From Sulfitobacter sp. W027 (GTDB lineage: Bacteria; Pseudomonadota; Alphaproteobacteria; Rhodobacterales; Rhodobacteraceae), in NCBI RefSeq assembly GCF_025143985.1, contig NZ_CP083564.1:3184001-3248000 (forward strand): 64,000 bases of DNA, in the 5' to 3' direction. Below, in pieces: positions 17,720 through 31,763 of this stretch. Below the pieces are notes generated by a model. It made no database searches, was not told the origin of the DNA, and was given only the letters and a program-made list of their open reading frames with translations. Position 1 is the first letter of the stretch. Every line of letters begins with the position of its first letter. The translations under genes were made by a program, and so were the position numbers.

Positions 17720-17791
17720 TAAGGCCACGGACTTTTTCAAAAAGTCCGGCCCGATTTCTTTAAAAGAAATCGGCACCCCCGGCTGGCCTTA
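17720..17791. repeat. 72-base cloverleaf-like inverted repeat
   Basis: Three nested perfect inverted repeats: the outer arm TAAGGCCA (17720-17727) with TGGCCTTA (17784-17791); CGGACTTTTT (17728-17737) with AAAAAGTCCG (17739-17748); and CCGATTTCTTT (17751-17761) with AAAGAAATCGG (17763-17773). It looks like a small dispersed intergenic element, but no second copy was recognised in this window. The outer right arm overlaps the first putative TauR box. Confidence 0.7.
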
Positions 17792-17815
17792 AGGAACAAA
17801 CCCAACTGGCACTAC
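17783..17815 (+). promoter_or_regulatory. Putative TauR-binding direct repeat upstream of tpa
   Basis: CTGGCCTTAA (17783-17792) and CTGGCACTAC (17806-17815) are direct repeats separated by 13 bases, so 23 bases start to start. The same arrangement stands before xsc, and a near-copy lies between nagK and tauR. MocR-type regulators such as TauR typically bind direct repeats. I recall a similar CTGGAC-type site for Rhodobacter capsulatus TauR at tpa, not checked. Confidence 0.6.
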
Positions 17816-17853
17816 TTGCGATGCGGCTTTCGCGGTGATGTGATACGCACATT

Positions 17854-17905
17854 GCCCGCCTCAGTGCGGGCTTCATTCGTGGGTTCGCCCACCCGCACAG
17901 AAAGG
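17854..17905 (+). promoter_or_regulatory. tpa leader with mutually exclusive hairpins
   Basis: Hairpin A pairs GCCCGC (17854-17859) with GCGGGC (17866-17871). Hairpin B is GTGGG-TTCG-CCCAC (17879-17892). An alternative stem pairs GTGCGGG (17864-17870) with CCCGCAC (17892-17898); it destroys hairpin A and reaches to two bases before the AAAGG ribosome-binding site. The pairings are exact; regulation by them is inference. Confidence 0.35.
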
Positions 17906-17913
17906 TTTGCCCC

Positions 17914-19311
17914 ATGGACGGCAATTTCAACGAGAACGACATCTCCCGCGTTGTCGAAGCCGACCGCGCGCATATCTGGCACCATCTGAGCCAGCACAAA
18001 CCCTATGAGACCACCGATCCGCGCATCATTGTCGAAGGCAAGGGCATGCGGGTTTGGGACCAAAAGGGCAAAGAACACCTTGATGCCGTGTCGGGCGGTG
18101 TCTGGACAGTCAACGTGGGCTACGGCCGCGAAAGCATCGCCAATGCCGTGCGCGACCAGCTGATCAAGCTGAACTATTTCGCCGGCTCCGCAGGGTCGAT
18201 CCCCGGCTCTCATTTCGCTGAAAAGCTGCTGGACAAGATGCCCGGTCTCGACCGCGTCTACTATTGCAACTCCGGCTCCGAGGCGAATGAGAAAGCCTTC
18301 AAAATGGTGCGCCAAATCGCGCACAAGCGCTATGGCGGCAAGAAGCACAAGATCCTCTACCGCGACCGCGACTACCACGGCACCACCATCGGCTGCCTCT
18401 CGGCGGGCGGTCAGGATGAGCGCAATGCGCAGTACGGCCCCTTCGCGCCGGGTTTCGTGCGCGTGCCGCACTGTCTGGAATACCGCAGCTTTGAGCAGGA
18501 AGGCGCCCCGCAAGAGAACTACGGCCCATGGGCCGCTGACCAGATCGAGAAGGTGATTCTTGCAGAAGGGCCGGAAACCGTCGGCGCGCTCTGCTTGGAG
18601 CCGGTGACAGCAGGCGGCGGCGTGATCGTCCCCCCTGACGGCTATTGGGAGCGCGTGCAGGAGATTTGCCGGAAGTATGACATCCTGCTGCATATTGATG
18701 AGGTCGTCTGCGGCGTCGGGCGCACGGGCACATGGTTCGGCTATCAGCATTACGGCATCCAGCCTGATATGGTGACGATGGCCAAAGGCGTTGCCTCGGG
18801 CTATGCCGCCATTGCCTGTCTGGTCACGACCGATGCGGTCTTCGACATGTTCAAAGACGACGCTAGCGATCCATTGAACTACTTCCGCGATATTTCGACC
18901 TTTGGGGGTTGCACTGCGGGACCGACGGCGGGCATCGAAAACATGAACATCATTGAGCGTGAGAACCTGTTGGAGAACACCACCAACATGGGCAACTACA
19001 TGCTGGATCAGTTGCACGCGCTGGCCGACAAACACGCAGTGATCGGCGATGTGCGCGGCAAGGGGCTGTTTCTCGGGGCGGAGCTGGTCACCGACCGCGA
19101 CAGCCGCGACCCCGTTGAGGAAAAGCGCATTCAGGCTGTTGTGGGTGACTGCATGGCCCAAGGCGTCATCATTGGTGCGACCAACCGCTCGCTGCCGGGC
19201 AAGAACAACACGCTGTGCTTCTCGCCCGCCCTGATCGCCTCGCGTGATGATATCAATGAGATCATCACGGCGGTGGATAGTGCACTGGGCCGGGTTTTCG
19301 CTTCGGCGTAA
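17914..19311 (+). CDS. tpa: Taurine--pyruvate aminotransferase
   Basis: Transfers the amino group of taurine to pyruvate, giving sulfoacetaldehyde and alanine; first step of taurine dissimilation. A 465-residue class III PLP aminotransferase starting MDGNFNENDISRVVEADRAHIWHH, as in Bilophila and roseobacter Tpa. It has VSGGVWTVNVGYG, CNSGSEANEKAFK, the PLP-contact HIDEVVCGVGRTG and the Schiff-base Lys291 in VTMAKGVASGYAA. An AAAGG site precedes the ATG. Sulfoacetaldehyde is the substrate of Xsc, encoded 5 kb downstream, and both genes carry matching upstream boxes. Beta-alanine or GABA transaminases are the nearest alternatives, but the N-terminus and context favour Tpa. Confidence 0.93.
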   Translation: MDGNFNENDISRVVEADRAHIWHHLSQHKPYETTDPRIIVEGKGMRVWDQKGKEHLDAVSGGVWTVNVGYGRESIANAVRDQLIKLNYFAGSAGSIPGSHFAEKLLDKMPGLDRVYYCNSGSEANEKAFKMVRQIAHKRYGGKKHKILYRDRDYHGTTIGCLSAGGQDERNAQYGPFAPGFVRVPHCLEYRSFEQEGAPQENYGPWAADQIEKVILAEGPETVGALCLEPVTAGGGVIVPPDGYWERVQEICRKYDILLHIDEVVCGVGRTGTWFGYQHYGIQPDMVTMAKGVASGYAAIACLVTTDAVFDMFKDDASDPLNYFRDISTFGGCTAGPTAGIENMNIIERENLLENTTNMGNYMLDQLHALADKHAVIGDVRGKGLFLGAELVTDRDSRDPVEEKRIQAVVGDCMAQGVIIGATNRSLPGKNNTLCFSPALIASRDDINEIITAVDSALGRVFASA

Positions 19312-19333
19312 AACCGCGAAAACATCGCTCTGC

Positions 19334-19364
19334 AAGGCAGCATCGGTTGACCCGGTGCTGCCTT
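19334..19364 (+). terminator. Hairpin after tpa
   Basis: AAGGCAGCATCGG pairs with CCGGTGCTGCCTT (one G-T pair) around a short loop, 22 bases after the tpa stop. There is no T-run, so termination may be partial or the hairpin may stabilise the transcript end. Confidence 0.45.
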
Positions 19365-19517
19365 CGTCTATCTAAACCTCTGTCTTGCCCGAACATGACA
19401 TCAGATGGAAAATTGCCGCGCACCCCTGCGTTGAAAATTTTTCTTAATATCCATCGCTTTCGCGGGAACCTCTTCCAACCTCCCCGCGTTGGCAAATGAG
19501 TAACTTGGGAGAAAGAC

Positions 19518-19781
19518 ATGAAGAAATTCCTTATCGCCATTCCGCTGGTCGCCACTCTTGCCGCTTGTAACGGCACCACGCCCAGCCAAGGCGCCCTGAC
19601 AGGTGCAGCCCTCGGTGCGGCCACAGGTGCTGCCGTTTCAGGTGGCGACGACAAAGTTCAAGGCGCGATCATTGGCGGTCTCGCCGGTGCAGCGGCTGGC
19701 AACTACATCGGCCAGACCCAGTCCGGCAAATGCGTTTACCAGAACTCGAACGGTCAGCGCTACGTCGCAGCTTGCCCATAA
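19518..19781 (+). CDS. Small glycine-zipper lipoprotein
   Basis: An 87-residue lipoprotein: signal peptide MKKFLIAIPLVATLAAC with lipobox LAAC, then a glycine-zipper segment (ALTGAALGAATGAAVSGG and AIIGGLAGAAAGNYIG), like OsmB or the 17 kDa surface antigen. A short C-terminus with two Cys follows (GKCVYQNSNGQRYVAACP). Glycine zippers pack against or insert into the outer membrane, and such proteins are commonly stress-induced; the role here is unknown. GGGAGA precedes the ATG, AT-rich DNA lies upstream and a strong terminator lies downstream, so it is probably monocistronic and well expressed. Lying between tpa and tauE is not evidence for a sulfonate role. Confidence 0.88.
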   Translation: MKKFLIAIPLVATLAACNGTTPSQGALTGAALGAATGAAVSGGDDKVQGAIIGGLAGAAAGNYIGQTQSGKCVYQNSNGQRYVAACP

Positions 19782-19808
19782 ACGTCTGACATTGCGCGGT
19801 TTCGCGTG

Positions 19809-19845
19809 AAGGGGGCCTCGACCGATTGGTCGGGGCCCTTTTTCG
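19809..19845 (+). terminator. Intrinsic terminator of the lipoprotein gene
   Basis: GGGCCTCGACC pairs with GGTCGGGGCCC (one G-T pair) across GATT and is followed by TTTTT at 19839-19843. Confidence 0.85.
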
Positions 19846-19930
19846 TTTTCACTCTCCAGCGCAGCGCTTGGCAGCGCCTCAATTTGATCCTAACAGGGGG
19901 TGAAAGCGCCTGCGCGTTTGGGGAGGGTAA

Positions 19931-20689
19931 ATGACATTAATCGATATTGCGATCTTAGTGGTCGCAGCCTTCAGTGCAGGGGTGTTAAACACCATCGCCG
20001 GGGGCGGCACCTTTCTGACCTTCCCCGCATTGGTCTTCGTCGGCATGCCGCCCGTGACTGCCAATGCAACAAGCGCCGTAGCGGTATTTCCCGGCTACCT
20101 TGCCGGAGCCTTCGGCTTTCGCAATGAACTGGGCGTTTTTGACCGCAAGCGGCTGGCGCGGCTTTGCCTCATAACACTTGCAGGTGGCCTCGTCGGGTCT
20201 GGCCTGCTGCTGGTCTCCTCCAACGAGGCCTTTTCGGTCGTCGTGCCATTCCTTCTGCTTGCCGCGACGCTGGCCTTCCTACTGGGCGACCGTATCCGCG
20301 CCTTCGCTGCCGCCCATGCCCGCCCTGTGACGCCCGAAGGCGCGCTCGGCCTTTTTGCTGTCAGCGTCTATGGTGGCTATTTCAACGGCGGTTTGGGCAT
20401 CGTGTTGCTGGCCCTTTTCGCGCTCTGGGGGATGACCGATCTGCACGGGATGAACGGATTGAAAAACGGGCTGAGCTTTGTGCTTTCGTCGATCTCTGTG
20501 GTGGTCTTTGCACTGGCGGGGCTTGTTGCATGGCCGCAAGCGTTGCTGATGATGCTGGCAGCCACGGCAGGCGGTTATGCTGGCGCGCCGCTGGCCCGGG
20601 CGCTGCCGAAACAAACGGTGCGCTTGCTGATCGCCGCCATCGGCTTTGGCATGAGCGCGGTCTTCTTCTGGCGGCTTTTCGCAGCCTAG
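19931..20689 (+). CDS. TauE/SafE-family sulfite/anion exporter
   Basis: A 252-residue integral membrane protein of about eight helices in two repeats. It opens with FSAGVLNTIAGGGTFLTFPAL, the TauE/SafE signature with its GGG loop; the second half repeats it as YGGYFNGGLGIVLLALFAL. Family members export sulfite, sulfoacetate or related anions, and some import anions. Between tpa and the xsc-soe operon, removing sulfite or sulfate released by Xsc and SoeABC is the obvious role, inferred from context. GGAGGG precedes the ATG. I saw no TauR-like box in its 80-base upstream region. Its end overlaps the convergent nagA stop by four bases. Confidence 0.88.
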   Translation: MTLIDIAILVVAAFSAGVLNTIAGGGTFLTFPALVFVGMPPVTANATSAVAVFPGYLAGAFGFRNELGVFDRKRLARLCLITLAGGLVGSGLLLVSSNEAFSVVVPFLLLAATLAFLLGDRIRAFAAAHARPVTPEGALGLFAVSVYGGYFNGGLGIVLLALFALWGMTDLHGMNGLKNGLSFVLSSISVVVFALAGLVAWPQALLMMLAATAGGYAGAPLARALPKQTVRLLIAAIGFGMSAVFFWRLFAA

Positions 20690-21816
20690 CCCAGCACACG
20701 CACCGCGCCGCTTTCGGGATCGTAAAGCACCAAGGGTTGGTCCGGGTTTTCGATCCGACCCAAGCCCATGTGATTACGCAACAGCGCCAGCGGCCCCGAT
20801 ATCGCCCGCGCAAGTGCGGTCTCCAACGGCTCCCCCACCGCATGGGTCAGTGTATAGACCGCGCGGCCCATCTCCAGATCCGCCCCTGCTAACGTACCGT
20901 CCGCCAAGGTCAGTCGACCGCCCGCGCGAAAGACCTCGCGCCCGTTCAACGTGAAGCTAGTGATATCCGATCCCGCTGTCGCCATGGCATCACTGACAAG
21001 AAAAATCCCCGCTGCCTTCGCCGCAAGCGCATTGCGTATGCTGGCGGGATGCACATGGATGCCGTCGGCAATCAGACCCGCGTGGATCCCGTCCCGCTCC
21101 AGCGCCGCCCCGACCAGACCCGGCGCGCGGTTGCCCATCTGGCTCATCGCGTTGAACAGATGCGTGACGCAGCAGGCACCCGCATCGAAGGCAGCCATGC
21201 AGGTTTCGTAATCCGCATCACTATGGCCGAGCGAGACGATCACCCCCGCCTCGGCCATCGCGCTTATCTGCGCGCTGCTGGTGTTTTCCGGCGCGACCGT
21301 GACCATGAGGTTCGGCAACAGCGTGGCCGCGCGCAGGATAAGAGCGAGGTCCGCTGCCTCCATTGGGCGGATCAACGCCCCGTCATGCGCCCCCTTGCGG
21401 GCAAGCGATAGATGCGGCCCCTCCAAATGCAGCCCGATGATGCCCGGCACCCCTTCGGCAATGGCGCTGACGGCAGCCTCAATGGCGGCTTCGGTCTTGT
21501 CTGGCGTGTCGGTGATCAAGGTCGGCAAAAGCGCCGCCACACCCGTAGCGCGATGCGCTTCAGCGACACGGCGCAGAGTGGCCACATCGGGCGCGTCGTT
21601 GAACATGACTCCGCCGCCACCGTTAACCTGAAGATCGATAAAACCGGGGCAGAGCACGCCCGCTGCCAACCCCTCAGTCGCCGTGCTTTCCGGCACCTCT
21701 TCGGGGGTGAGAATGCGACGGCTGCCGTCTTGCATCAGTGCCAGCACCTTGCCGGAGTGCAGATGCGTCCCATCGTGAATTTCCGCCCCGGTGAACACCT
21801 TTCCGATTTCGCTCAT
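20686..21816 (-). CDS. nagA: N-acetylglucosamine-6-phosphate deacetylase
   Basis: Hydrolyses GlcNAc-6-phosphate to glucosamine-6-phosphate and acetate; a cytoplasmic metal-dependent amidohydrolase (TIM barrel). The 376-residue protein has the expected GFIDLQVNGGGGVMFND N-terminal barrel motif, GLHLEGPHLS with the metal Glu, VSLGHSDADYETC and CCVTHLFNAMSQ with metal His residues, and LVSDAMATAGS with the catalytic Asp. It overlaps the upstream kinase gene by ATGA. Kinase plus deacetylase would process free GlcNAc; a glucosamine-6-phosphate deaminase is not in the window. The pair splits the sulfonate genes and reads in the opposite direction. Confidence 0.94.
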   Translation of the reverse strand: MSEIGKVFTGAEIHDGTHLHSGKVLALMQDGSRRILTPEEVPESTATEGLAAGVLCPGFIDLQVNGGGGVMFNDAPDVATLRRVAEAHRATGVAALLPTLITDTPDKTEAAIEAAVSAIAEGVPGIIGLHLEGPHLSLARKGAHDGALIRPMEAADLALILRAATLLPNLMVTVAPENTSSAQISAMAEAGVIVSLGHSDADYETCMAAFDAGACCVTHLFNAMSQMGNRAPGLVGAALERDGIHAGLIADGIHVHPASIRNALAAKAAGIFLVSDAMATAGSDITSFTLNGREVFRAGGRLTLADGTLAGADLEMGRAVYTLTHAVGEPLETALARAISGPLALLRNHMGLGRIENPDQPLVLYDPESGAVRVLG

Positions 21817-22703
21817 GGCAAAACCTCCCCCGCTGCGGCCTTGCAGACCAGATGAAATGCGCCGTCGAGCGCCGAGCCGCGCGCCGCAATCTGACCCGCC
21901 AAATGGTCTTCCGGCAGAAACCGCGCATAATGTGGCCCGATCCCGCCCAGTAGGCAGAGCGGATCACCCGGCGCGAAATCCAGCGCCTTCAACGCGCGGA
22001 CGTAATAGGTAGCACCTTCCTCCATCAACGCCTGCGCATGGCGGTCCTTGGCCTTTGCCGCCGCGATGACCTTGGGCGCGAAAGCGGCGTAGTCTCCCGG
22101 CTGCGCCGTCAGGCTGAAGGCCACGAAGGCATCAGGATTATCTCCAAAATCCGCCATCAAAGCGCGGGTCAGATCGCTATGCGGCATCAGCCCGTCATGG
22201 CATTGCAGCGCAAGATTCAGCGCCCCGCGCCCCAGCCATGCGCCCGATCCTTGGTCGGCCAGATGGAACCCCCAACTCCCGACATAGCGAAAACCTGCGC
22301 CATCCGTTGCCGCCACAATCGTGCCCGTGCCGATGGCCATCACCCAGCCCGCCACGCCTTCGCCAAGCGCGCCAACGACGCAGGCCGGGCGGTCATCATC
22401 AGCAATGATCCGGGCGTAGGGCAGCGCCGCGCGCAGGCGCGCCTCGTCGCGCGTAATATTCATCCCCGCAAGGCCGATGTATGCCGTGGCCCCCTCAAGT
22501 GCCGAGACGGGCAGCCCCGCCGAGGCCGCCGCCGCCTCAACCGCGCTGCGCAGGTTCACAAGCGTCTGCTCAGGGTCATTGCCGATATTCGCGCGCCCGC
22601 TGGATGCCCGGCCAAGGATGCCATCATGCTGCGTGCCGATGGCCGCGCGGCAACCTGTGCCACCGCCGTCCACGGCGATCAAAAGAGGGGCGAAGATGCT
22701 CAT
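21813..22703 (-). CDS. BadF/BadG-type ATPase, putative N-acetylglucosamine kinase
   Basis: A 296-residue sugar kinase of the BadF/BadG/BcrA/BcrD ATPase fold, the group holding eukaryotic-type GlcNAc kinase. It shows LIAVDGGGTGCRAAIG (phosphate 1), GLAGMNITRDEARLR, a DDDRPACVVGALG adenosine/phosphate segment, VMAIGTGTIVAA and WGFHLADQGSGAWLGRGAL, a GlcNAc-kinase-type sequence. Coupled by ATGA to nagA, it most likely makes GlcNAc-6-phosphate from GlcNAc freed during wall turnover or chitin use. Its ATG at 22703 has only a weak AGAAG site. Its 117-base upstream region, shared with tauR, contains a putative TauR box pair oriented toward this gene. Confidence 0.85.
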   Translation of the reverse strand: MSIFAPLLIAVDGGGTGCRAAIGTQHDGILGRASSGRANIGNDPEQTLVNLRSAVEAAAASAGLPVSALEGATAYIGLAGMNITRDEARLRAALPYARIIADDDRPACVVGALGEGVAGWVMAIGTGTIVAATDGAGFRYVGSWGFHLADQGSGAWLGRGALNLALQCHDGLMPHSDLTRALMADFGDNPDAFVAFSLTAQPGDYAAFAPKVIAAAKAKDRHAQALMEEGATYYVRALKALDFAPGDPLCLLGGIGPHYARFLPEDHLAGQIAARGSALDGAFHLVCKAAAGEVLP

Positions 22704-22774
22704 CCGATACTTCTAGGCGACGCGTCGGACGAACGGAAGTAGGGGGCGGGGCACCGCGTCAAATTCGGAGGCCC

Positions 22775-22806
22775 GTAATGCCAGATTGATCTCCCCCTAA
22801 GGCCAG
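22775..22806 (-). promoter_or_regulatory. Putative TauR-binding repeat in the nagK-tauR intergenic region
   Basis: Read on the minus strand, CTGGCCTTAG (22806-22797) and CTGGCATTAC (22784-22775) are direct repeats with a 12-base spacer. The first is identical to the first box before xsc. The site ends 14 bases before the tauR start codon, fitting autoregulation; its orientation faces nagK. Confidence 0.55.
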
Positions 22807-22820
22807 CCTAACCTCACGGC

Positions 22821-24284
22821 ATGGCCCTGCCCGTCGAAACCTTTTGCCTGCGCCCCGGTGCGCAAGGCACCCTGCAGCAGCAGATCCAACAGATGATCGC
22901 CCAAGGCATCCTCTCAGGTCGGTTTCAGCGGGGAGAGAAACTGCCGTCGACCCGCAAGCTCGCGGCGCATCTTGGCGTCAGCCGGATCACAGTAACCATC
23001 GCCTATACCGAGCTTTTGGCGAATGACTACCTCACCTCGCGCGGGCGGTCGGGTTATTTCGTCTCGGACAACGCGCCAGCCCCGCCGGCCTTTGCCCCCC
23101 GCGCCGAGGCGGATGACGCCATCGACTGGACCCGCGCCATCGGTCAACGGTTCAGCGCCAATGGGCTGGCCGCCAAACCGCAGGATTGGGCCAGCTACCG
23201 CTACCCTTTCATCTACGGCCAAGCTGACCCGACCCTGTTTGACCACGCCAACTGGCGACTTTGCGCGTTGCAAGCCTTGGGCCAGCGCGACTTTACCTCG
23301 ATGACGACCGATTACTACGACCAAGACGACCCGCAACTGATCGAGTTCATCGCCCGCCACATCCTGCCCCGGCGCGGCGTCTCGGCGCGGCCCGAGCAAA
23401 TCCTCATCACGCTTGGCGCGCAGAACGCGCTTTGGCTGTCAGCGCAGGTGCTGCTGACTCAACGCCGTCGCGCCGTTTTGGAAGACCCGTGCTATCCGGC
23501 GCTCAGCGGTATCCTCAGCCAGTCCCGCTGCCACATCACCCCGGTGCGCGTGGATCAAGACGGCCTCCCGCCTGAGGCGATCCCCCCCGATACCGATGTG
23601 ATTTTCACCACGCCCAGCCACCAATGCCCGACCAATGCGACCATGCCGATGGACCGCCGCCGGGCGCTCTTGGCCCGCGCCCGCACGCTTGAGGCGCTCA
23701 TTGTTGAGGATGACTATGAGTTTGAAATGTCCTTTCTCAAACCCGCCTCGCCCGCGCTCAAATCGCTCGATGATGAGGGGCGGGTGATCTATGTCGGCAG
23801 TTTCTCCAAATCGCTTTTTCCGGGGCTACGGCTGGGCTATCTGGTGGGGTCTGAACCCTTCATCCGCGAAGCCCGCGCTCTGCGCGCATCGGTCCTGCGG
23901 CACCCGCCGGGGCATATCCAGCGTACCGCCGCTTACTTCCTGTCGCTGGGCCATTATGACGCCCTCATTCGCCGCATGGGGTTGGCGCTCCACGAACGCC
24001 GCCGCGTCATGGAAGAGGCGCTTGAAGCGCATGGGCTGCGGGTCTCGGGCCGGGGCGCTTACGGCGGATCCTCTTTCTGGATGCGCGCGCCGGAGAGCGT
24101 GGACACCGCGCAACTGGCTGAATACCTGCGCGCCAGCGATGTCTTGGTCGAACCCGGCCACGCCTTTTTCGCGGGCGAAGAGAGGGCCACGAACTATTAC
24201 CGGCTGGCCTATTCCTCCATCCCCGCCGCACGGATCGGCGAAGGCGTCGGCCTGATTGCCCAAGAGATTGACCGCCTGCGCTGA
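22821..24284 (+). CDS. tauR: MocR-type (GntR/aminotransferase) transcriptional regulator, likely TauR
   Basis: A 487-residue MocR-subfamily regulator with an N-terminal GntR winged helix (TRKLAAHLGVSRITVTIAYTELLANDYL, split by a short linker from RGRSGYFVSDN) and a C-terminal fold-type I aminotransferase-like domain. The latter keeps the PLP lysine in YVGSFSKSLFPGLRLGYL, so it should bind PLP and sense an amine. Placement immediately before xsc and 3.5 kb after tpa matches TauR, the taurine-responsive activator of roseobacters and Rhodobacter. Taurine as ligand is inferred. Upstream there is little Shine-Dalgarno signal; the likely binding site lies just before the ATG. A second box pair begins two bases after its stop. 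Confidence 0.88.
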   Translation: MALPVETFCLRPGAQGTLQQQIQQMIAQGILSGRFQRGEKLPSTRKLAAHLGVSRITVTIAYTELLANDYLTSRGRSGYFVSDNAPAPPAFAPRAEADDAIDWTRAIGQRFSANGLAAKPQDWASYRYPFIYGQADPTLFDHANWRLCALQALGQRDFTSMTTDYYDQDDPQLIEFIARHILPRRGVSARPEQILITLGAQNALWLSAQVLLTQRRRAVLEDPCYPALSGILSQSRCHITPVRVDQDGLPPEAIPPDTDVIFTTPSHQCPTNATMPMDRRRALLARARTLEALIVEDDYEFEMSFLKPASPALKSLDDEGRVIYVGSFSKSLFPGLRLGYLVGSEPFIREARALRASVLRHPPGHIQRTAAYFLSLGHYDALIRRMGLALHERRRVMEEALEAHGLRVSGRGAYGGSSFWMRAPESVDTAQLAEYLRASDVLVEPGHAFFAGEERATNYYRLAYSSIPAARIGEGVGLIAQEIDRLR

Positions 24285-24285
24285 T

Positions 24286-24318
24286 CTGGCCTTAGGGCTG
24301 GGCCATTTCTGGCCCTAA
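24286..24318 (+). promoter_or_regulatory. Putative TauR-binding direct repeat upstream of xsc
   Basis: CTGGCCTTAG (24286-24295) and CTGGCCCTAA (24309-24318) are direct repeats with a 13-base spacer, the same geometry as before tpa. The second box ends 63 bases before the xsc ATG, a sensible place for an activator. TTAGGGC and GCCCTAA within the site also form an inverted repeat. Confidence 0.62.
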
Positions 24319-24381
24319 CCCCCGCCCGCGCCTACCCGTAATTTGCCCCAAGCTTTGCCCCCACGCCCAAAGGATCGCCCC

Positions 24382-26157
24382 ATGAAAATGACCACCGAAG
24401 AAGCCTTCGTCAAAACCCTTCAGATGCATGGGATCGACACGGCCTTTGGCATTATCGGCTCGGCCATGATGCCGATCTCCGACCTGTTCCCCGCCGCCGG
24501 GATCACCTTCTACGACGGCGCGCATGAGTGTAACTCTGGCATGATGGCCGATGGGTTCACCCGCGCCTCGGGGCGGATGTCGATGATGGTGGCGCAGAAC
24601 GGGCCGGGGATTACCAACTTCGTGACGCCGGTGAAAACCGCCTATTGGAACCACACGCCGTTGCTGCTGGTGACCCCGCAGGCGGCGAACAAGACCATCG
24701 GTCAGGGCGGCTTTCAGGAGGTCGAGCAGATGGCGCTCTTCCGCGACATGGTCGCCTATCAAGAGGAGGTCCGTGACCCGACCCGCATCGCCGAGACGCT
24801 GAACCGGGTGATCCTGCAAGCCAAACGCCACTCCGCCCCTGCGCAGATCAACATCCCGCGTGATTTCTGGACCCAAGTGATCGACATCGACCTGCCCGCC
24901 ATCGTCGAGTTCGAGCGCCCGTCTGGCGGAGAGACCGCCATTGCCGAAGCGGCGGAACTGCTTTCAAACGCGAAATTCCCGGTGATCTTGAATGGCGCGG
25001 GTGTGGTCATCGGCGGCGCGATTGACGACGCACGCAAACTGGCCGAACGGCTCGATGCGCCCGTCTGCTGCGGCTACCAACACAATGACGCCTTCCCCGG
25101 CTCGCACCCGCTGTCGGTGGGGCCCTTGGGCTACAACGGCTCGAAAGCGGCGATGGAATTGATCGCCAAGGCCGATGTGGTGCTGGCGCTCGGCACGCGG
25201 CTCAACCCCTTCTCGACCCTGCCGGGCTATGGCATCGACTATTGGCCCAAGGACGCCAAGATCATTCAGGTCGACATCAACCCCGACCGCATCGGCCTGA
25301 CCAAGAAGGTCAGCGTGGGCATCGTCGGCGATGCCGGCAAGGTGGCCCGCACGATCCTTGATGGGCTCAGCGATAGCGCGGGCGACGCGGGCCGCGAGGA
25401 ACGGCGCAACCTGATCGCCCAGACCAAATCCGCATGGGCGCAGGAACTCACCTCAATGGATCACGAGGAAGACGACCCCGGCACCACATGGAACGAACGC
25501 GCCCGCGACCGCGAGCCGGAAAAGATGTCCCCCCGCATGGCATGGCGCGCGATCCAGAAAGCGCTGCCGAAAGAGGCGATCATCAGCTCCGACATCGGCA
25601 ACAACTGCGCCATCGGCAATGCCTATCCAACATTCGAGGCGGGCCGCAAATACCTCGCCCCCGGCCTTTTCGGCCCCTGCGGCTATGGTTTCCCGGCGAT
25701 CTGCGGGGCCAAGATCGCCTGCCCTGACGTGCCGGTGGTGGGCTTTGCCGGGGATGGCGCGTTTGGCATTTCAATGAACGAGATGGTCAGCGTCAGCCGC
25801 GACGACTGGCCCGCCGTGACCATGGTAATCTTTCGCAACTACCAGTGGGGCGCGGAGAAACGAAACACGACACTGTGGTTTGATGACAATTTCGTCGGCA
25901 CCGAACTCGCGCAGGATGTGAGCTATGCCGCGGTGGCCAAAGCCTGTGGCGTCGAGGGCGTACAAGTGTCGTCGATGGATGAGTTGACCGACGCGCTTGA
26001 CCGCGCGGTCAAGGCGCAGATGGACGAGGGCAAGACCACCTTCATCGAAGTGCTGCTGAACCAAGAGCTGGGCGAGCCCTTCCGGCGCGACGCGATGAAG
26101 AAACCCGTCTCTGTCGCTGGAATCAGCCGGGATGACATGCGCCCGCAACAGGTCTGA
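24382..26157 (+). CDS. xsc: Sulfoacetaldehyde acetyltransferase
   Basis: A thiamine-diphosphate enzyme that cleaves sulfoacetaldehyde with phosphate to acetyl phosphate and sulfite; the desulfonation step for taurine, isethionate and related sulfonates. The 591-residue protein begins MKMTTEEAFVKTLQMHGIDTAFGIIGSAMM and has NSGMMADGFTRASG with the TPP-activating Glu region, a central domain, and the TPP/Mg motif opening at G457-D458-G459 (GDGAFGISMNEM...NYQWGAEKRN). GSAMMPISD and IVEFERPSGGE-type segments separate Xsc from acetolactate synthase. ATG 24382 follows AAAGGA. It is the first gene of a five-gene operon; ackA starts three bases after its stop. Confidence 0.96.
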   Translation: MKMTTEEAFVKTLQMHGIDTAFGIIGSAMMPISDLFPAAGITFYDGAHECNSGMMADGFTRASGRMSMMVAQNGPGITNFVTPVKTAYWNHTPLLLVTPQAANKTIGQGGFQEVEQMALFRDMVAYQEEVRDPTRIAETLNRVILQAKRHSAPAQINIPRDFWTQVIDIDLPAIVEFERPSGGETAIAEAAELLSNAKFPVILNGAGVVIGGAIDDARKLAERLDAPVCCGYQHNDAFPGSHPLSVGPLGYNGSKAAMELIAKADVVLALGTRLNPFSTLPGYGIDYWPKDAKIIQVDINPDRIGLTKKVSVGIVGDAGKVARTILDGLSDSAGDAGREERRNLIAQTKSAWAQELTSMDHEEDDPGTTWNERARDREPEKMSPRMAWRAIQKALPKEAIISSDIGNNCAIGNAYPTFEAGRKYLAPGLFGPCGYGFPAICGAKIACPDVPVVGFAGDGAFGISMNEMVSVSRDDWPAVTMVIFRNYQWGAEKRNTTLWFDDNFVGTELAQDVSYAAVAKACGVEGVQVSSMDELTDALDRAVKAQMDEGKTTFIEVLLNQELGEPFRRDAMKKPVSVAGISRDDMRPQQV

Positions 26158-26160
26158 GGC

Positions 26161-27261
26161 GTGACCCAAGCGCTGGTGCTTGTCGTCAACGCGGGATCGT
26201 CGTCTATCAAGGCGGCGGTCTTTGACGGCGGGTTGGCCGAGCGTCTGCGGATTGAGGCGCAGGGCATCGGCCAGACCGGCGCGCTGCGTCTGGGAGACGC
26301 TCCGCCGGTGCGCCTTGATCTGCCTGACCACCAGACCGCCTTCCGCGCCATTCTGGACGGGCTGCAACAAAAAGGGATTGCGGGCGCTGACCTGACGGCC
26401 GCCGCCCACCGTGTCGTGCATGGCGGCCCGAATCTGGCCGAGACAACGACAATCACGCCTGCCGTCCGAAGCGCCATCGCCGAGGCTCAACCGCTGGCGC
26501 CACTGCACAATCCGCACCACCTCGGCGCGATCGAGGCGCTGGCAGCGCTCCTGCCCGACCTGCCGCAGGTTGCCGCCTTTGACACAGGCTTTCACCGCAG
26601 CAACCCCGATGTCGCACGCCGCTATGCTCTGCCCGACCGGGCAGAGACCGCCGCCCTGCGTCGCTATGGGTTTCACGGCATCAGCTATGAAAGCCTCGTG
26701 CAGAATTTCCCTCAGACCACGGGCGCAGACCTTCCCCGCCGCCTGCTGGCGCTGCATTTGGGCAATGGCGCGTCGCTCTGCGCGATCCTAGAGGGGCAGT
26801 CGGTCGCCACTACTATGGGTTTCTCGCCGCTCAGCGGGCTGACCATGGGCACCCGCGCAGGCGAGATCGACGCGGGCGCGGTGCTGCATCTGGTGCGCGA
26901 TCTGGGGCTGGAGGAGGCCCAAACACTGCTGCATCACGAAAGCGGATTGCTGGGCCTCTCTGGCCTCACCGCCGACATGCGGCAACTGGCTGAGACCGAT
27001 ACAACCGCCGCCCGCTTTGCCCGCGACCACTTCTGCTACTGGATCACCCGGCAAGCGGGGTCGATGATCGCCGCCATGGGCGGGCTCGATGGCATCGTCT
27101 TCACCGGGGGTATCGGCGAAAACGATTCCGAGGTGAGGGAAAAGGTTCTTGCAAACCTTAGCTGGGCGGGAAATATTCCCAATTGGATCATCCCCGCCGC
27201 CGAAGAGAAACATATCGCGCGCCAAACGCGCGCCCTGCTGAAAGACCCCGCCCTCTCATGA
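26161..27261 (+). CDS. ackA: Acetate kinase
   Basis: Converts acetyl phosphate plus ADP to acetate plus ATP. The 366-residue protein keeps all acetokinase signatures: LVVNAGSSSIKAAVFDG, AAHRVVHGGPNLAETT, HLGNGASLCAILEGQSVATTMG with the catalytic Arg/Asp neighbourhood, and GIVFTGGIGENDSEVRE. It is about 30 residues shorter than typical AckA but nothing essential is obviously lost. It starts at GTG three bases after xsc and its stop overlaps soeA by ATGA. Linked to Xsc it would draw energy directly from acetyl phosphate. Many sulfonate operons have pta (to acetyl-CoA) in this place, so an AckA-only arrangement is notable. Confidence 0.94.
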   Translation: MTQALVLVVNAGSSSIKAAVFDGGLAERLRIEAQGIGQTGALRLGDAPPVRLDLPDHQTAFRAILDGLQQKGIAGADLTAAAHRVVHGGPNLAETTTITPAVRSAIAEAQPLAPLHNPHHLGAIEALAALLPDLPQVAAFDTGFHRSNPDVARRYALPDRAETAALRRYGFHGISYESLVQNFPQTTGADLPRRLLALHLGNGASLCAILEGQSVATTMGFSPLSGLTMGTRAGEIDAGAVLHLVRDLGLEEAQTLLHHESGLLGLSGLTADMRQLAETDTTAARFARDHFCYWITRQAGSMIAAMGGLDGIVFTGGIGENDSEVREKVLANLSWAGNIPNWIIPAAEEKHIARQTRALLKDPALS

Positions 27262-30074
27262 CGCACTCCCAGCCGCCGCTTGATCTGTCGCCCAAGGTCT
27301 CGGACGAGGTTCGCAAGACCACCTGCTACATGTGCGCCTGTCGCTGCGGCATCAACGTGCATATGAAGAAGGGCAAGGTCGCCTATATCGAAGGCAACCG
27401 CGACCACCCGGTGAACCAAGGGGTGCTCTGCGCCAAAGGCTCTGCCGGGATCATGCAACACAACTCTCCCGCACGGCTGCGCAACCCAATGAAACGGGTC
27501 GGCCCGCGCGGGTCAGGCGAGTTTGAGAGCATCAGCTGGAAAGAGGCGCTGCAGATTGCCACCGACTGGCTGGAGCCGCTGCGCCGCGAAGCGCCGGAAA
27601 AGCTCGCGTTCTTCACCGGGCGCGACCAATCGCAGAGCTTCACATCGCTTTGGGCGCAGGCTTTCGGCACGCCGAACTACGCGGCCCACGGCGGTTTCTG
27701 CTCGGTCAATATGGCCACCGCTGGCATCTACACGATGGGCGGAGCGTTCTGGGAGTTTGGTCAGCCCGATTGGGACCACACCAAGCTGTTCATGCTGTTT
27801 GGTGTGGCCGAGGACCATGACAGCAATCCGATCAAGATGGGTCTGGGCAAGCTGAAGAAACGCGGTGCGCGGGTCATCGGGGTGAACCCGATCCGCACCG
27901 GGTACAACGCCATCGCCGATGATTGGGTCGGCATCACGCCCGGCACTGATGGGCTGTTCATTCTGTCGCTGATCCACTGCCTGATGAAGGCCGGACGCAT
28001 AGATTTGGACTACCTCGCGCGCTACACCGACGCGCCAGTGCTGCTGAACAGCGACCCGAAATCGCCGGAGTATGGCCTGCAATTGCGCGATGAGGACGGC
28101 AAGGCGCTGGTGGTCGACCGCAAGACCGGCAAACTCACCCCCTTTGACCAGCCCGGCGTGCGCCCCGACCTTGCCGCCACCTACCGAACGGCGGGCATTA
28201 CGCACCGCCCGGTCTTTCGCCAGATGGCCGAGCAATATCTGGGTGAAGAGTACACCCCCGAGGCCGTCGCTGAGCGTTGTGGCATCCCCGCGCCGCGCAT
28301 CCGCGCCATCGCTGCCGAACTGGCCCGCGTCGCCTTTGACGAAGCTTTCGAGCTTGAGCACGAATGGACCGACTTCCGGGGCGAGCATCACAAGACGATG
28401 ACAGGCCGCCCGGTCTCTTTCCACGCCATGCGCGGGATCTCGGCCCATGCCAATGGGTTTCAGACCTGCCGCGCGCTGCATGTGCTGCAGATCATCCTTG
28501 GCACCGTCGAAGTGCCCGGCGGTTTCCGCTTCAAACCGCCCTACCCCAAGCCTGCCACCGCCCATCCCAAACCGCATTGCAAAGCCACCCCCGATGCGCC
28601 GCTGGATGGGCCGCACCTGGGCTTCGTGCATGGCCCGGATGACCTCGCGCTGAAGGCCGACGGCAGCCCGGCGCGGATCGACAAGGCGTTCACATGGGAA
28701 AACCCGATGTCAGCCCACGGGCTGATGCATATGGTGATCTCCAACGCCCATGCAGGCGATCCCTATAAGATCGACACGCTGTTCATGTATATGGCGAATA
28801 TGTCGTGGAACTCGTCGATGAACCCCGGCGGGGTGATGGAGATGCTGACCGATACCGACGAGAATGGCGACTACGTCATCCCTCGGATCATCTACTCCGA
28901 TGCCTATTCCTCGGAGATGGTGGCCTATGCGGACCTGATCCTGCCCGACACGACCTACCTTGAACGGCACGACTGCATCTCACTGCTCGACCGCCCGATC
29001 AGCGAGGCCGACGCCGCCGCCGATGCGATCCGTTGGCCCGTGGTGGAGCCCAACCGCGACGTGCGCGGCTTTCAGTCGGCGCTCTGCGATCTGGGGGCAA
29101 AGCTTTGGCTGCCGGGGTTCGTGAACGAGGACGGCAGCCAGAAATACAAAGACTACGCCGATTACATCACCCGTCACGAACGCCGTCCGGGCATCGGCCC
29201 GCTGGCCGGGTTCCGGGGTAAGGATGGCAGAGACGCGGGGCGCGGGGCGCCGAACCCCGAGCAGATCGACCGCTATATCGAAAACGGCGGCTTCTTCGTC
29301 AATCACATCCCGGAAGGGGCGAACTACTACAAGCCGTGGAACGCTGCCTATCAGGATTGGGCCGTCGGCATGGGCATCTACGACGCGCCGCAGCCCTATC
29401 TGTTCTCGCTCTACGTCGAGCCGCTGCGGCGTTTTCAATTGGCCGCCGAAGGTCATGGCGACCGCCAACCGCCTGAGCATCTGCGTGAACGGATCAAGCA
29501 GACCATGTCGCCCCTGCCGATCTGGTACGAAAGCGATCCAGAAGGCGTTGAGGGCTATAACGTCCACGCGCTGACCCAACGCCCGATGGCAATGTACCAC
29601 TCTTGGGGCGGCCAAAACGCTTGGTTGCGCCAGTTGCACGGGCACAACCCGCTTTACCTGCCCACCGCGATCATGCGCGCCAAGGGGCTGCAAGACGGCG
29701 ATTGGGCGCGCGTGACCTCTCCGCATGGAGGGATCACCGTGCCCGTGATGGAGATGGCGGCCCTGAACCCCAAAACGGTCTGGACGTGGAACGCCATCGG
29801 CAAGCGCAAGGGCGCATGGGCGCTGGACCGCGACGCGCCGGAGACGACCAAAGGCTTCTTGCTCAACCACCTGATCCACGAATTACTGCCGCCCAAGGGC
29901 GACGGTCTGCGGTGGTCAAACTCCGACCCGATCACCGGACAGGCCGCGTGGTTCGACCTCAAGGTCCACATCGAAAAGACCGACGCCCCAGCCGAGGCGC
30001 AGCCGGAAATCCCGGCGCAGCGCTCTCCCGTCCCGCCCGCGCCGCAGGACATTGCGTGGAAGGCGGGCAAATGA
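27258..30074 (+). CDS. soeA: Sulfite dehydrogenase (quinone) catalytic subunit SoeA, molybdopterin oxidoreductase
   Basis: The large molybdenum subunit of a cytoplasm-facing, membrane-bound sulfite-oxidising enzyme, 938 residues. Starting at ATG 27258 it has no twin-arginine signal, as expected for SoeA. The N-terminal [4Fe-4S] motif is C23, C26, C30, C58 (TTCYMCACRCGINV, then GVLCAKGSAG), followed by molybdopterin-binding segments (FGTPNYAAHGGFCSVNMA, MSWNSSMNPGG) and a C-terminal dinucleotide-binding domain. Context with xsc (a sulfite producer), an iron-sulfur subunit and a DmsC-type anchor makes SoeABC much more likely than DMSO, thiosulfate or polysulfide reductase. It overlaps ackA by four bases. 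Confidence 0.92.
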   Translation: MTHSQPPLDLSPKVSDEVRKTTCYMCACRCGINVHMKKGKVAYIEGNRDHPVNQGVLCAKGSAGIMQHNSPARLRNPMKRVGPRGSGEFESISWKEALQIATDWLEPLRREAPEKLAFFTGRDQSQSFTSLWAQAFGTPNYAAHGGFCSVNMATAGIYTMGGAFWEFGQPDWDHTKLFMLFGVAEDHDSNPIKMGLGKLKKRGARVIGVNPIRTGYNAIADDWVGITPGTDGLFILSLIHCLMKAGRIDLDYLARYTDAPVLLNSDPKSPEYGLQLRDEDGKALVVDRKTGKLTPFDQPGVRPDLAATYRTAGITHRPVFRQMAEQYLGEEYTPEAVAERCGIPAPRIRAIAAELARVAFDEAFELEHEWTDFRGEHHKTMTGRPVSFHAMRGISAHANGFQTCRALHVLQIILGTVEVPGGFRFKPPYPKPATAHPKPHCKATPDAPLDGPHLGFVHGPDDLALKADGSPARIDKAFTWENPMSAHGLMHMVISNAHAGDPYKIDTLFMYMANMSWNSSMNPGGVMEMLTDTDENGDYVIPRIIYSDAYSSEMVAYADLILPDTTYLERHDCISLLDRPISEADAAADAIRWPVVEPNRDVRGFQSALCDLGAKLWLPGFVNEDGSQKYKDYADYITRHERRPGIGPLAGFRGKDGRDAGRGAPNPEQIDRYIENGGFFVNHIPEGANYYKPWNAAYQDWAVGMGIYDAPQPYLFSLYVEPLRRFQLAAEGHGDRQPPEHLRERIKQTMSPLPIWYESDPEGVEGYNVHALTQRPMAMYHSWGGQNAWLRQLHGHNPLYLPTAIMRAKGLQDGDWARVTSPHGGITVPVMEMAALNPKTVWTWNAIGKRKGAWALDRDAPETTKGFLLNHLIHELLPPKGDGLRWSNSDPITGQAAWFDLKVHIEKTDAPAEAQPEIPAQRSPVPPAPQDIAWKAGK

Positions 30075-30127
30075 CCGCCTCCCTCTGCGCCGCACCGCTC
30101 AAGACCCCTCAGGACACCCAGTCATGA
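30071..30127 (+). CDS. Possible 18-residue coupling ORF between soeA and soeB
   Basis: An ATG overlapping the soeA stop (ATGA at 30071-30074) opens an 18-codon frame encoding MTASLCAAPLKTPQDTQS. Its TGA (30125-30127) overlaps the soeB ATG, again as ATGA. It exactly fills the gap between the two structural genes. It could pass ribosomes from soeA to soeB; the peptide itself may have no function. Chance cannot be excluded. Confidence 0.3.
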   Translation: MTASLCAAPLKTPQDTQS

Positions 30128-30888
30128 CCACGCTCCCCCAACAGACCGACCGCAAACTCGGCCTTGTGATCGACCTTGATACCTGTGTCGGCTGCCATGC
30201 CTGCGTGATCTCCTGCAAAGGCTGGAACACCGAGAACTACGGCGCGCCGCTGTCGGACCAGGACGCCTATGGCGCGGACCCGTCGGGCACCTTTCTCAAC
30301 CGCGTGCACAGCTATGAGGTGCAGCCCGAGGCCGGTGCCGCGCAACTCGTCCACTTCCCGAAATCCTGCCTGCACTGCGATGACGCGCCCTGCGTCACAG
30401 TCTGCCCCACAGGGGCGAGCTACAAGCGCGTCGAAGACGGCATCGTGCTGGTCAATGAAAGCGACTGCATCGGTTGCGGTCTTTGCGCTTGGGCCTGCCC
30501 CTACGGCGCGCGTGAGATGGACGTGGCCGCAGGTGTGATGAAGAAGTGCACCCTCTGCGTCGACCGTATCTATAACGAGAACCTGCCCGAAGAAGACCGC
30601 CAGCCTGCTTGCGTGCGCACCTGCCCCGCTGGCGCGCGACACTTTGGCGATCTTGGCGATCCTGAGAGCGCGGTGAGCCAATTGGTGGCCGAGCGCGGCG
30701 GTGTGGACCTTATGCCCGAGCAAGGCACCAAACCTGTCAATAAATACCTGCCGCCCCGCCCGCGCGATCAGTTGCAAGGGCCGGAGGACAGTGGCGAGAT
30801 TGACATATTGGCGCCTTTCCTTGCCCCTATCGACAGCGGCCCCAAAGGCTTCCTCGGCTGGCTTGACCGCACACTGGAGAAGCTCTGA
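30124..30888 (+). CDS. soeB: Sulfite dehydrogenase iron-sulfur subunit SoeB
   Basis: A 254-residue ferredoxin-like electron-transfer subunit (DmsB/PhsB type) expected to carry four [4Fe-4S] clusters from SoeA to SoeC. The first cysteine group is C21, C24, C27, C31 (CVGCHACVISCK); others appear in KSCLHCDDAPCVTVCPTGA, NESDCIGCGLCAWACPYGA and MKKCTLCVDRIY through PACVRTCPAGARHFGD. A short C-terminal extension follows. The start ATG 30124 has an AGGA 11 bases upstream and overlaps the stop of the small 18-codon frame. The next gene begins in a TGATG overlap, so expression is tightly coupled. Confidence 0.93.
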   Translation: MTTLPQQTDRKLGLVIDLDTCVGCHACVISCKGWNTENYGAPLSDQDAYGADPSGTFLNRVHSYEVQPEAGAAQLVHFPKSCLHCDDAPCVTVCPTGASYKRVEDGIVLVNESDCIGCGLCAWACPYGAREMDVAAGVMKKCTLCVDRIYNENLPEEDRQPACVRTCPAGARHFGDLGDPESAVSQLVAERGGVDLMPEQGTKPVNKYLPPRPRDQLQGPEDSGEIDILAPFLAPIDSGPKGFLGWLDRTLEKL

Positions 30889-31763
30889 TGCATCCGGCAC
30901 CTTCTGTTATCCTGTTCAGCAGCCTGTCGGGGCTCGGCTTTGGCCTGCTTGCATGGCTCGGCATCGGCCTGCCTGCCGTGACCGGCTGGGTGGCCTTCGT
31001 TTTCTTCGCGCTGGCTTACCTTTTGGCCGTGGGCGGGTTGATCGCATCGACATTCCACTTGGGCCATCCGGAACGCGCGCTCAAGGCCTTTACCCAGTGG
31101 CGCAGCAGTTGGCTCAGCCGGGAGGCTTGGGCCTCGGTCGCGGCCCTGCTGACCATGGCAGCCTATGGCGCGGGGCTGGTGTTCTACGACATGCGGCTTT
31201 GGCCGCTAGGGCTGCTAGGCGCGGCACTGTCATTGCTGACGGTTCTGACCACGGCGATGATCTATACCCAGATGAAGACTGTGCCACGCTGGCACAGCGT
31301 GATGACGCCACTGAACTTCTTGTCGCTCAGCATTGCAGGAGGCGCGGTGCTGGCCGGACAGGTGACGGCGGCGATTGTGCTTCTGGTGCTGGCCGGGGCG
31401 GTGCAGATCGCCGCATGGTGGCACGGGGATCGGGCGCTGGCGGCCTCGGGGACAGATATCGCGACCGCCACGCGGCTCGGCAATATCGGCAGCGTCCGCG
31501 CCTTTGAGCCGCCGCATACTGGCAGCAACTATCTGCTGCGCGAGTTCGTTTATCAAATTGGGCGCAAACACGCGCTGAAGCTGCGGGTGATCGCGATTAC
31601 GCTTATGGTGCTGCTGCCGCTTCTGCTGCTCTTGTCGCCCGCGTTCCACCACCTTGCTGCTGCCCTCGCGGTGCTCAGCCACGCGGCGGGGGTGCTGACC
31701 TCGCGCTGGCTGTTCTTTGCGCAGGCGGAACATGTGGTCGGGATTTACTACGGCAAACGCTGA
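30888..31763 (+). CDS. soeC: Sulfite dehydrogenase membrane anchor SoeC (DmsC-like)
   Basis: A 291-residue membrane protein of about eight helices, of the DmsC/NrfD-like anchor type; it should bind the quinone pool and hold SoeAB on the inner face of the membrane. DmsC-type features are STFHLGHPERALKAFTQWRSSWLSREA near residues 46-72 and FFAQAEHVVGIYYG at the end. It opens at ATG 30888 in a TGATG overlap with soeB. It is the last gene of xsc-ackA-soeABC: a GC-rich hairpin lies ten bases after its stop and the next gene is convergent dapA. Confidence 0.92.
   Translation: MHPAPSVILFSSLSGLGFGLLAWLGIGLPAVTGWVAFVFFALAYLLAVGGLIASTFHLGHPERALKAFTQWRSSWLSREAWASVAALLTMAAYGAGLVFYDMRLWPLGLLGAALSLLTVLTTAMIYTQMKTVPRWHSVMTPLNFLSLSIAGGAVLAGQVTAAIVLLVLAGAVQIAAWWHGDRALAASGTDIATATRLGNIGSVRAFEPPHTGSNYLLREFVYQIGRKHALKLRVIAITLMVLLPLLLLLSPAFHHLAAALAVLSHAAGVLTSRWLFFAQAEHVVGIYYGKR

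Follow-up and report, generated by a model that had tools for sequence, protein, structure and literature searches.

Three paired direct repeats before tpa, tauR and xsc of Sulfitobacter sp. W027, predicted TauR operators in a forward and a reversed form

Taurine is a common marine organosulfonate, and a stretch of 64,000 nucleotides of Sulfitobacter sp. W027 (contig NZ_CP083564.1, positions 3,184,001 to 3,248,000; hereafter the window) carries three similar pairs of direct repeats, located before the taurine genes tpa and xsc and before tauR, which codes for a MocR-type regulator. The question raised by this locus is whether the three pairs are operators of TauR and, if so, what is meant by the reversed orientation and the shorter period of the pair at tauR. 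In Rhodobacter capsulatus, TauR is described as a MocR-type activator of taurine genes with direct repeats CTGGACYTAA (Wiethaus et al., 2008, via PMC5320631 and PMC4254191), and the Rhodobacterales TauR regulon was predicted to include tpa, xsc, ackA and bisC/hybA/dmsC (Suvorova and Rodionov, 2016; PMC5320631). The portions of the latter study drawn on here name divergons, auto-repression and a conserved direct-repeat motif as common traits of MocR regulators, and its TauR regulons display the same member genes and the same direct-repeat motif as the window. The regulon itself has already been predicted in print and is an ordinary, known regulatory system; what this analysis would add is a two-form operator geometry and a predicted leaderless tauR promoter occluded by its own product. 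The split into forward 23-bp and reversed 22-bp pairs, the promoter overlap and the leaderless tauR are not described in those portions of PMC5320631, whose main text lacks the strings 'spacing' and 'autoregulat'. Judged by title, the papers listed from the open-licence literature in PubMed Central (PMC) included only PMC5320631 and PMC4254191 on TauR targets and none on leaderless tauR, which does not establish absence from print.

Our reading is that the three pairs are very probably TauR operators, two of them placed to activate the pathway genes tpa and xsc, and one placed across the tauR promoter to restrain TauR itself. The pairs had been claimed in the original prediction, and their letters, strands and coordinates were all confirmed. 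On the forward strand, the predicted operator CTGGCCTTAA-N13-CTGGCACTAC (17783..17815) lies 98 nt upstream of tpa, and CTGGCCTTAG-N13-CTGGCCCTAA (24286..24318) lies 63 nt upstream of xsc, both with a period of 23 bp; the third, CTGGCCTTAG-N12-CTGGCATTAC, is on the minus strand (22775..22806), reversed relative to tauR, with a period of 22 bp and a distance of 14 nt to the tauR ATG. All resemble CTGGACYTAA, form direct repeats with a period of about two helical turns and stand before taurine genes, and their motif equals the repeat given for R. capsulatus TauR in the consulted part of PMC5320631. A pattern fitted to the three pairs had three matches in the window, compared with an average of 0.00 over 100 shuffled versions of the same 64 kb, and the single box CTGGCMYTA had seven matches in the window versus 0.81 expected, six of the seven being boxes of the three pairs. 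A looser pattern, CTGGNNNTA-N12..14-CTGGNNNTA, had four matches in the whole genome (4.15 Mb, 5 contigs), three of which are these pairs, within 6.5 kb and before tpa, tauR and xsc. The fourth (L004) was rejected as a real site, as it lies inside the open reading frame (ORF) of an ATP-binding cassette (ABC) transporter permease and has a spacing of 21 bp. When 23-bp spacing and box 2 as CTGGCNCTA were imposed with up to two mismatches, the genome had 17 matches versus 68 for a reversed control, exact only at tpa and xsc.

Conservation of the pairs was assessed in relatives fetched via the TauR protein, of which the best 80 of at least 547 confirmed ones form a first sample. Pair counts in this sample include the window and tolerate at most one mismatch among the 12 letters of CTGG...TA across both boxes; the final counts exclude L064 and L035 for tpa and L027 for tauR, as L064 and L027 are cut by contig ends and L035 has N. 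The taurine-gene neighbourhood is widely kept: besides the window, 51 of the 80 fetched relatives had tpa and 65 had xsc with a usable upstream region. A forward 23-bp pair was found in 64/66 xsc upstream regions and 43/52 tpa upstream regions (with a forward 22-bp pair in 7/52), and a reversed 22-bp pair in 72/80 tauR upstream regions, where letter shuffles of the same regions, counting any pair at any spacing of 15 to 32, gave expectations of 1.6 (xsc), 1.1 (tpa) and 1.1 (tauR) loci. The pairs thus recur before all three genes, which is what the check proposed with the original prediction called for. In the aligned relatives, little information resides in most of the columns that separate or flank the boxes, so that recent descent alone does not account for this conservation. 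Before tpa and xsc, near-invariance belongs to the promoter-proximal box 2, not to box 1: box 2 reads CTGGCCCTA in 46/64 xsc rows and 33/45 tpa rows (the artefact row L064 being still among these 45), and box 1 varies far more, with its commonest form in only 8/64 and 6/45 rows, respectively. The earlier claim of a nearly invariant first box holds for the three window sites and gives way, in the relatives, to a conserved box 2 at tpa and xsc. At tauR, the commonest box 1 is CTGGACTTA, in 22 of the 72 rows.

A second sample was drawn evenly across the order, with a match in 91 of 121 genomes; 51 of the 60 lowest-scoring places were read, and the sample may share species with the first. At 58-70% identity (36 loci), the region before tauR had a reversed 22-bp pair in 25 loci, a reversed 23-bp pair in three and none in eight, and at lower identity a reversed 22-bp pair was found in 4/13 loci at 46-54% and in 0/2 at about 40%. 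As separate observations, the relatives L142 and L148 have a 23-bp pair ending in CTGGCCCTA that is farther upstream and oriented away from tauR, and two TauR-like second copies (L154 and L155, 48% identity) have a reversed 22-bp pair with slightly different letters (CTGGTCTAA...CTGGCCCTA); these copies may correspond to the TauR2 group named in PMC5320631.

The regulator (22821..24284, forward strand) displays the domain composition of MocR proteins, a GntR winged helix-turn-helix domain (PF00392, residues 18-81) and an aminotransferase class I/II domain (PF00155, residues 151-470), both over cut-off. It is 52.5% identical (residues 32-483) to the protein encoded beside tauA on pSymB of Sinorhizobium meliloti ml47, and was called TauR because of its operator sequence, its gene neighbourhood and this identity. 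In S. meliloti strain Rm1021, TauR was shown by experiment to be required for activation of PtauA, and with this promoter it is in use as an inducible expression tool (PMC4254191).

How the two forward pairs would work is suggested by the promoter geometry at xsc. A predicted -10 element, TAATTT (24339..24344, forward strand), begins 30 nt past the first base of box 2, and TAnnnT occurs at exactly this offset in 45 of 64 xsc loci; downstream from box 2, the sole other TAnnnT offset above 5 is inside box 2 itself (7/64). Assuming a 17-bp spacer, the -35 hexamer would begin within the final two letters of box 2; in the window it reads TAACCC, unlike TTGACA. As box 2 lies at the -35 region and the -35 hexamer is poor, the predicted layout at xsc is that of a class-II-type activator site. 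Therein, a head-to-tail TauR dimer, presumably with pyridoxal phosphate and taurine as ligands, would bind the two direct repeats, with the pair pointing toward the gene at both tpa and xsc; with box 2 situated at the -35 region and the -35 itself poor, TauR plus taurine would recruit RNA polymerase at xsc, in the manner of a class-II-type activator.

The pair at tauR stands in a different setting, namely across a conserved core promoter. In the window, a predicted -35 element, TTGATC (22786..22791, forward strand), lies one base after box 2, and a predicted -10 element, TAACCT (22809..22814, forward strand), follows after a 17-bp spacer, the ATG beginning 7 nt past the -10. In the tauR direction, TTG is found one base past box 2 in 54 of 72 loci and TAnnnT two bases past box 1 in 56 of 72, every other column having at most 12 in each case, and the distance from the reversed pair to the ATG is 13-15 nt in 70 of the 72 loci that have it. 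A Shine-Dalgarno (SD)-like core of at least four letters is lacking from most tauR genes: it was found in 12/80 (15%), which compares with 53/53 for tpa, 61/66 for xsc and a background of 16% (597 positions). A -10 element ending about 6 nt before the ATG, without an SD, is the sequence signature of a leaderless promoter, and since the start codon is so close to a conserved -10 and the SD is lacking, the tauR mRNA is probably leaderless, transcription being predicted to begin with the A of the ATG at 22821. Leaderless transcripts are an established feature of Alphaproteobacteria: according to PMC3616915, 171 leaderless mRNAs were mapped in S. meliloti, and a leaderless Rhodobacter sphaeroides operon is cited there. 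Because the reversed pair spans the -35 flank and the spacer of this promoter, bound TauR would occlude the polymerase and limit its own synthesis, and the overlap of the pair with the conserved core promoter supports autorepression. GabR of Bacillus subtilis, as presented in the consulted text of PMC5320631, is like this proposal in being a MocR protein that binds direct repeats, switches on a catabolic operon and acts as a repressor at its own promoter; unlike it, GabR responds to gamma-aminobutyric acid and uses one divergent region. The conserved operator geometry would translate into predictions testable at base level, on the TauR activation sites, the self-repression site and the leaderless regulator mRNA.

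Several observations weigh against the reading of the three pairs as TauR operators of these kinds. The loose pattern is not enriched genome-wide, with four matches versus five for a reversed control; the number of matches is by itself unremarkable, and what stands out is the clustering of three of the four before tpa, tauR and xsc. In the first sample, the pair is missing in 2/66 xsc, 2/52 tpa and 7/80 tauR regions, and in the aligned tpa rows no TAnnnT column was found beyond box 2 itself. The promoter layout at tauR is not universal either, as in the second sample, whose layout counts accept 10 of the 12 key letters (the pair counts given above require 11), in 15/36 loci only 1-6 nt separate the reversed 22-bp pair from the ATG, and 6/36 have neither form. 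For loci with the pair at 1-6 nt, the promoter is necessarily elsewhere; their SD count (11/15) is confounded, as the box itself contains AAGG or AGGT. The layout is present in the remaining 15/36 loci, where 12-15 nt lie between the pair and the ATG, with TTG in 13/15, TAnnnT in 9/15 and an SD in 2/15. In these second-sample counts the start codon was extrapolated where the match began after residue 1, and in L140 and L141 the ATG is 3 nt farther than assumed. Finally, the regulator passes the NCBIfam model for PdxR (NF052282, 352.8 bits versus a cut-off of 320), the sole pass among the 25 of 62 matches listed, which would suit a MocR protein of the PdxR type that serves vitamin B6 genes, with the taurine genes as mere neighbours. 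This we hold to be extremely improbable: the pass is weakened by the lack of any TauR model among those 25 of 62 matches, the boxes agree with the TauR repeat in print and precede tpa and xsc in nearly all relatives having these genes, and elsewhere the tauR relatives adjoin tauA or uptake genes of the tripartite ATP-independent periplasmic (TRAP) type.

Does the spacing itself set the direction of regulation? In the original prediction, the 22-bp period was taken as a mark of repression, and a stronger form of this idea is that spacing is the switch, a 22-bp period locking TauR in a repressing state and a 23-bp period in an activating one. The split between reversed 22-bp pairs at tauR (72/80) and forward 23-bp pairs at xsc (64/66) is indeed very consistent, and it holds also for pairs located at the ATG. 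Yet the period is 22 bp at 7/52 tpa sites, and it is again 22 bp in the best pair of the region separating tauR from tauA on pSymB of S. meliloti ml47, although PtauA is activated by TauR in strain Rm1021 (as stated in the part of PMC4254191 seen; the letters of the pair are those of ml47, not Rm1021). Spacing alone does not mean repression, since PtauA is TauR-activated and its best pair has this period, and a strict 22-bp rule for repression was rejected in view of the tpa sites and the S. meliloti pair. The region between tauR and tauA in S. meliloti (L112, 4829-4882) displays three boxes in a row, spaced 22 and then 23 bp, the middle one being shared and the third weak; this triple box is possibly a combined repression and activation operator. 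The weaker third box, 23 bp on, leaves some room for the spacing switch, which we nevertheless consider unlikely. What stands of the proposed TauR site and autoregulation at tauR is repression by overlap with the conserved core promoter, and what falls is the argument from the 22-bp spacing. It was also considered that the 22-bp period might be forced by the 17-bp promoter spacer; this was dropped, as loci with the pair at the ATG have the same period although their promoter must be placed differently.

As to the reversed orientation, loci on plasmids point to a possible origin. Among 13 plasmid loci, out of 178 matching records, seven have the reversed 22-bp pair at tauR: Pseudorhodobacter (L104), Paracoccus (L109 and L110), Ensifer (L111), Sinorhizobium (L112), Cereibacter (L113) and Aminobacter (L114). 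Where there is annotation, the gene divergent from tauR is tauA (L110, L112, L114) or a gene for a TRAP binding protein (L113), and in L109 it is an NTF2-family gene ahead of an oxidoreductase gene and xsc. S. meliloti differs from the window in that its tauR forms a divergon with tauABC and has its start codon farther from the pair. The reversed orientation was probably inherited from an ancestral divergon in which one shared pair served both the outward operon and tauR, and the simplest history would be that the divergent target was relocated in Roseobacter relatives, leaving the operator to tauR alone. A broader proposal follows these lines, namely that alphaproteobacterial TauR operators come in two fixed forms, forward 23-bp pairs at targets and reversed 22-bp pairs at tauR, and that the second form is a remnant of an ancestral divergon of tauR and a taurine operon, kept as an autorepression site once the divergent target had been relocated and, in many Roseobacter relatives, lying inside the promoter of a leaderless tauR mRNA; we advance it tentatively and give it somewhat less than an even chance. 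Evidence on the other side comes from the same plasmids: by the rule of the script, six of the 13 loci (L103, L105-L108, L115) have no reversed 22-bp pair at tauR, and TAnnnT at +30 from box 2 toward the outward gene was found in 0/6 divergon loci. By eye, L103 has 10 of the 12 letters at 22 bp, and L115 has a 24-bp pair only; in L105, L106 and L107, the annotated upstream neighbour is co-directional with tauR.

In the window itself, the gene facing away from tauR is a nagK-like gene, which lies with nagA on the minus strand (20686-22703), between tpa and the TauE-family gene on one side and tauR on the other; this arrangement, with nagKA and a TauE-family gene between tpa and tauR, sets the window apart from the R. 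capsulatus TauR system. The third pair points toward nagK at a distance of 71 nt, with an orientation and distance resembling those of the tpa and xsc sites, from which it could be argued that the pair belongs to nagK and that TauR activates a nagKA operon from it. Nevertheless, nagK and nagA adjoin tauR only in the window and in 1/80 fetched stretches (Sulfitobacter delicatus, L005), some stretches being short contigs, and the pair is kept at tauR in 72/80 regions, window included; its box 2 is CTGGCATTA and not the activator-type CTGGCCCTA, and no TAnnnT starts 24-39 nt from the box 2 start toward nagK, either in the window or in L005. Activation of nagKA from this pair therefore appears very improbable: nagK was rejected as a TauR target, on the grounds of the single neighbourhood and the missing TAnnnT, and is best read as a bystander. 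Neighbours were chosen by longest ORF, which sometimes took antisense or spurious ORFs, and the statement on nagK is the only one that leans on this choice. The kinase name rests on NCBIfam NF046058, matched below its cut-off (149 versus 370 bits).

With the pair at tauR assigned to tauR itself, the predicted regulon in this genome, within the limits of the patterns used, is made up of tpa, the xsc-ackA-soeABC-like genes and tauR, and the originally predicted regulon of tpa and xsc-ackA-soeABC with direct repeats is borne out by conservation in relatives and by the match to the published TauR motif. A box before tauABC had been suggested as well; with the scanned patterns, no pair was found near the sole TauA-like ABC cluster of the genome, whose best TauA-like match (C1:1510774) is itself below the family cut-off (163 versus 304 bits). 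The predicted gene for taurine-pyruvate aminotransferase, tpa (17914..19311, forward strand), encodes a class III aminotransferase (PF00202), with no NCBIfam model over cut-off among the 25 of 69 matches listed; its name is based on the original prediction, on gene context and on an annotated tpa adjoining tauR in Paracoccus alcaliphilus. The sulfoacetaldehyde acetyltransferase gene xsc (24382..26157, forward strand) matches TIGR03457 with 943 bits (cut-off 676), and downstream of it lies ackA (26161..27261, forward strand), of the acetate/propionate kinase family (TIGR00016, 295.1 bits, cut-off 293.4). Three genes follow on the same strand (27258..31763), with Pfam domains of a molybdopterin subunit, a 4Fe-4S subunit and a DmsC-type anchor, and are called soeABC-like after the name given in the original prediction; as the ORFs are closely packed on one strand, these genes probably belong to the xsc operon. 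Downstream of tpa and on its strand, a TauE/SafE-family gene (PF01925, 19931-20689) has no TauR pair of its own, and because a G+C-rich inverted repeat, seen by eye at about 19336-19362, follows tpa, co-transcription of the two genes is doubtful.

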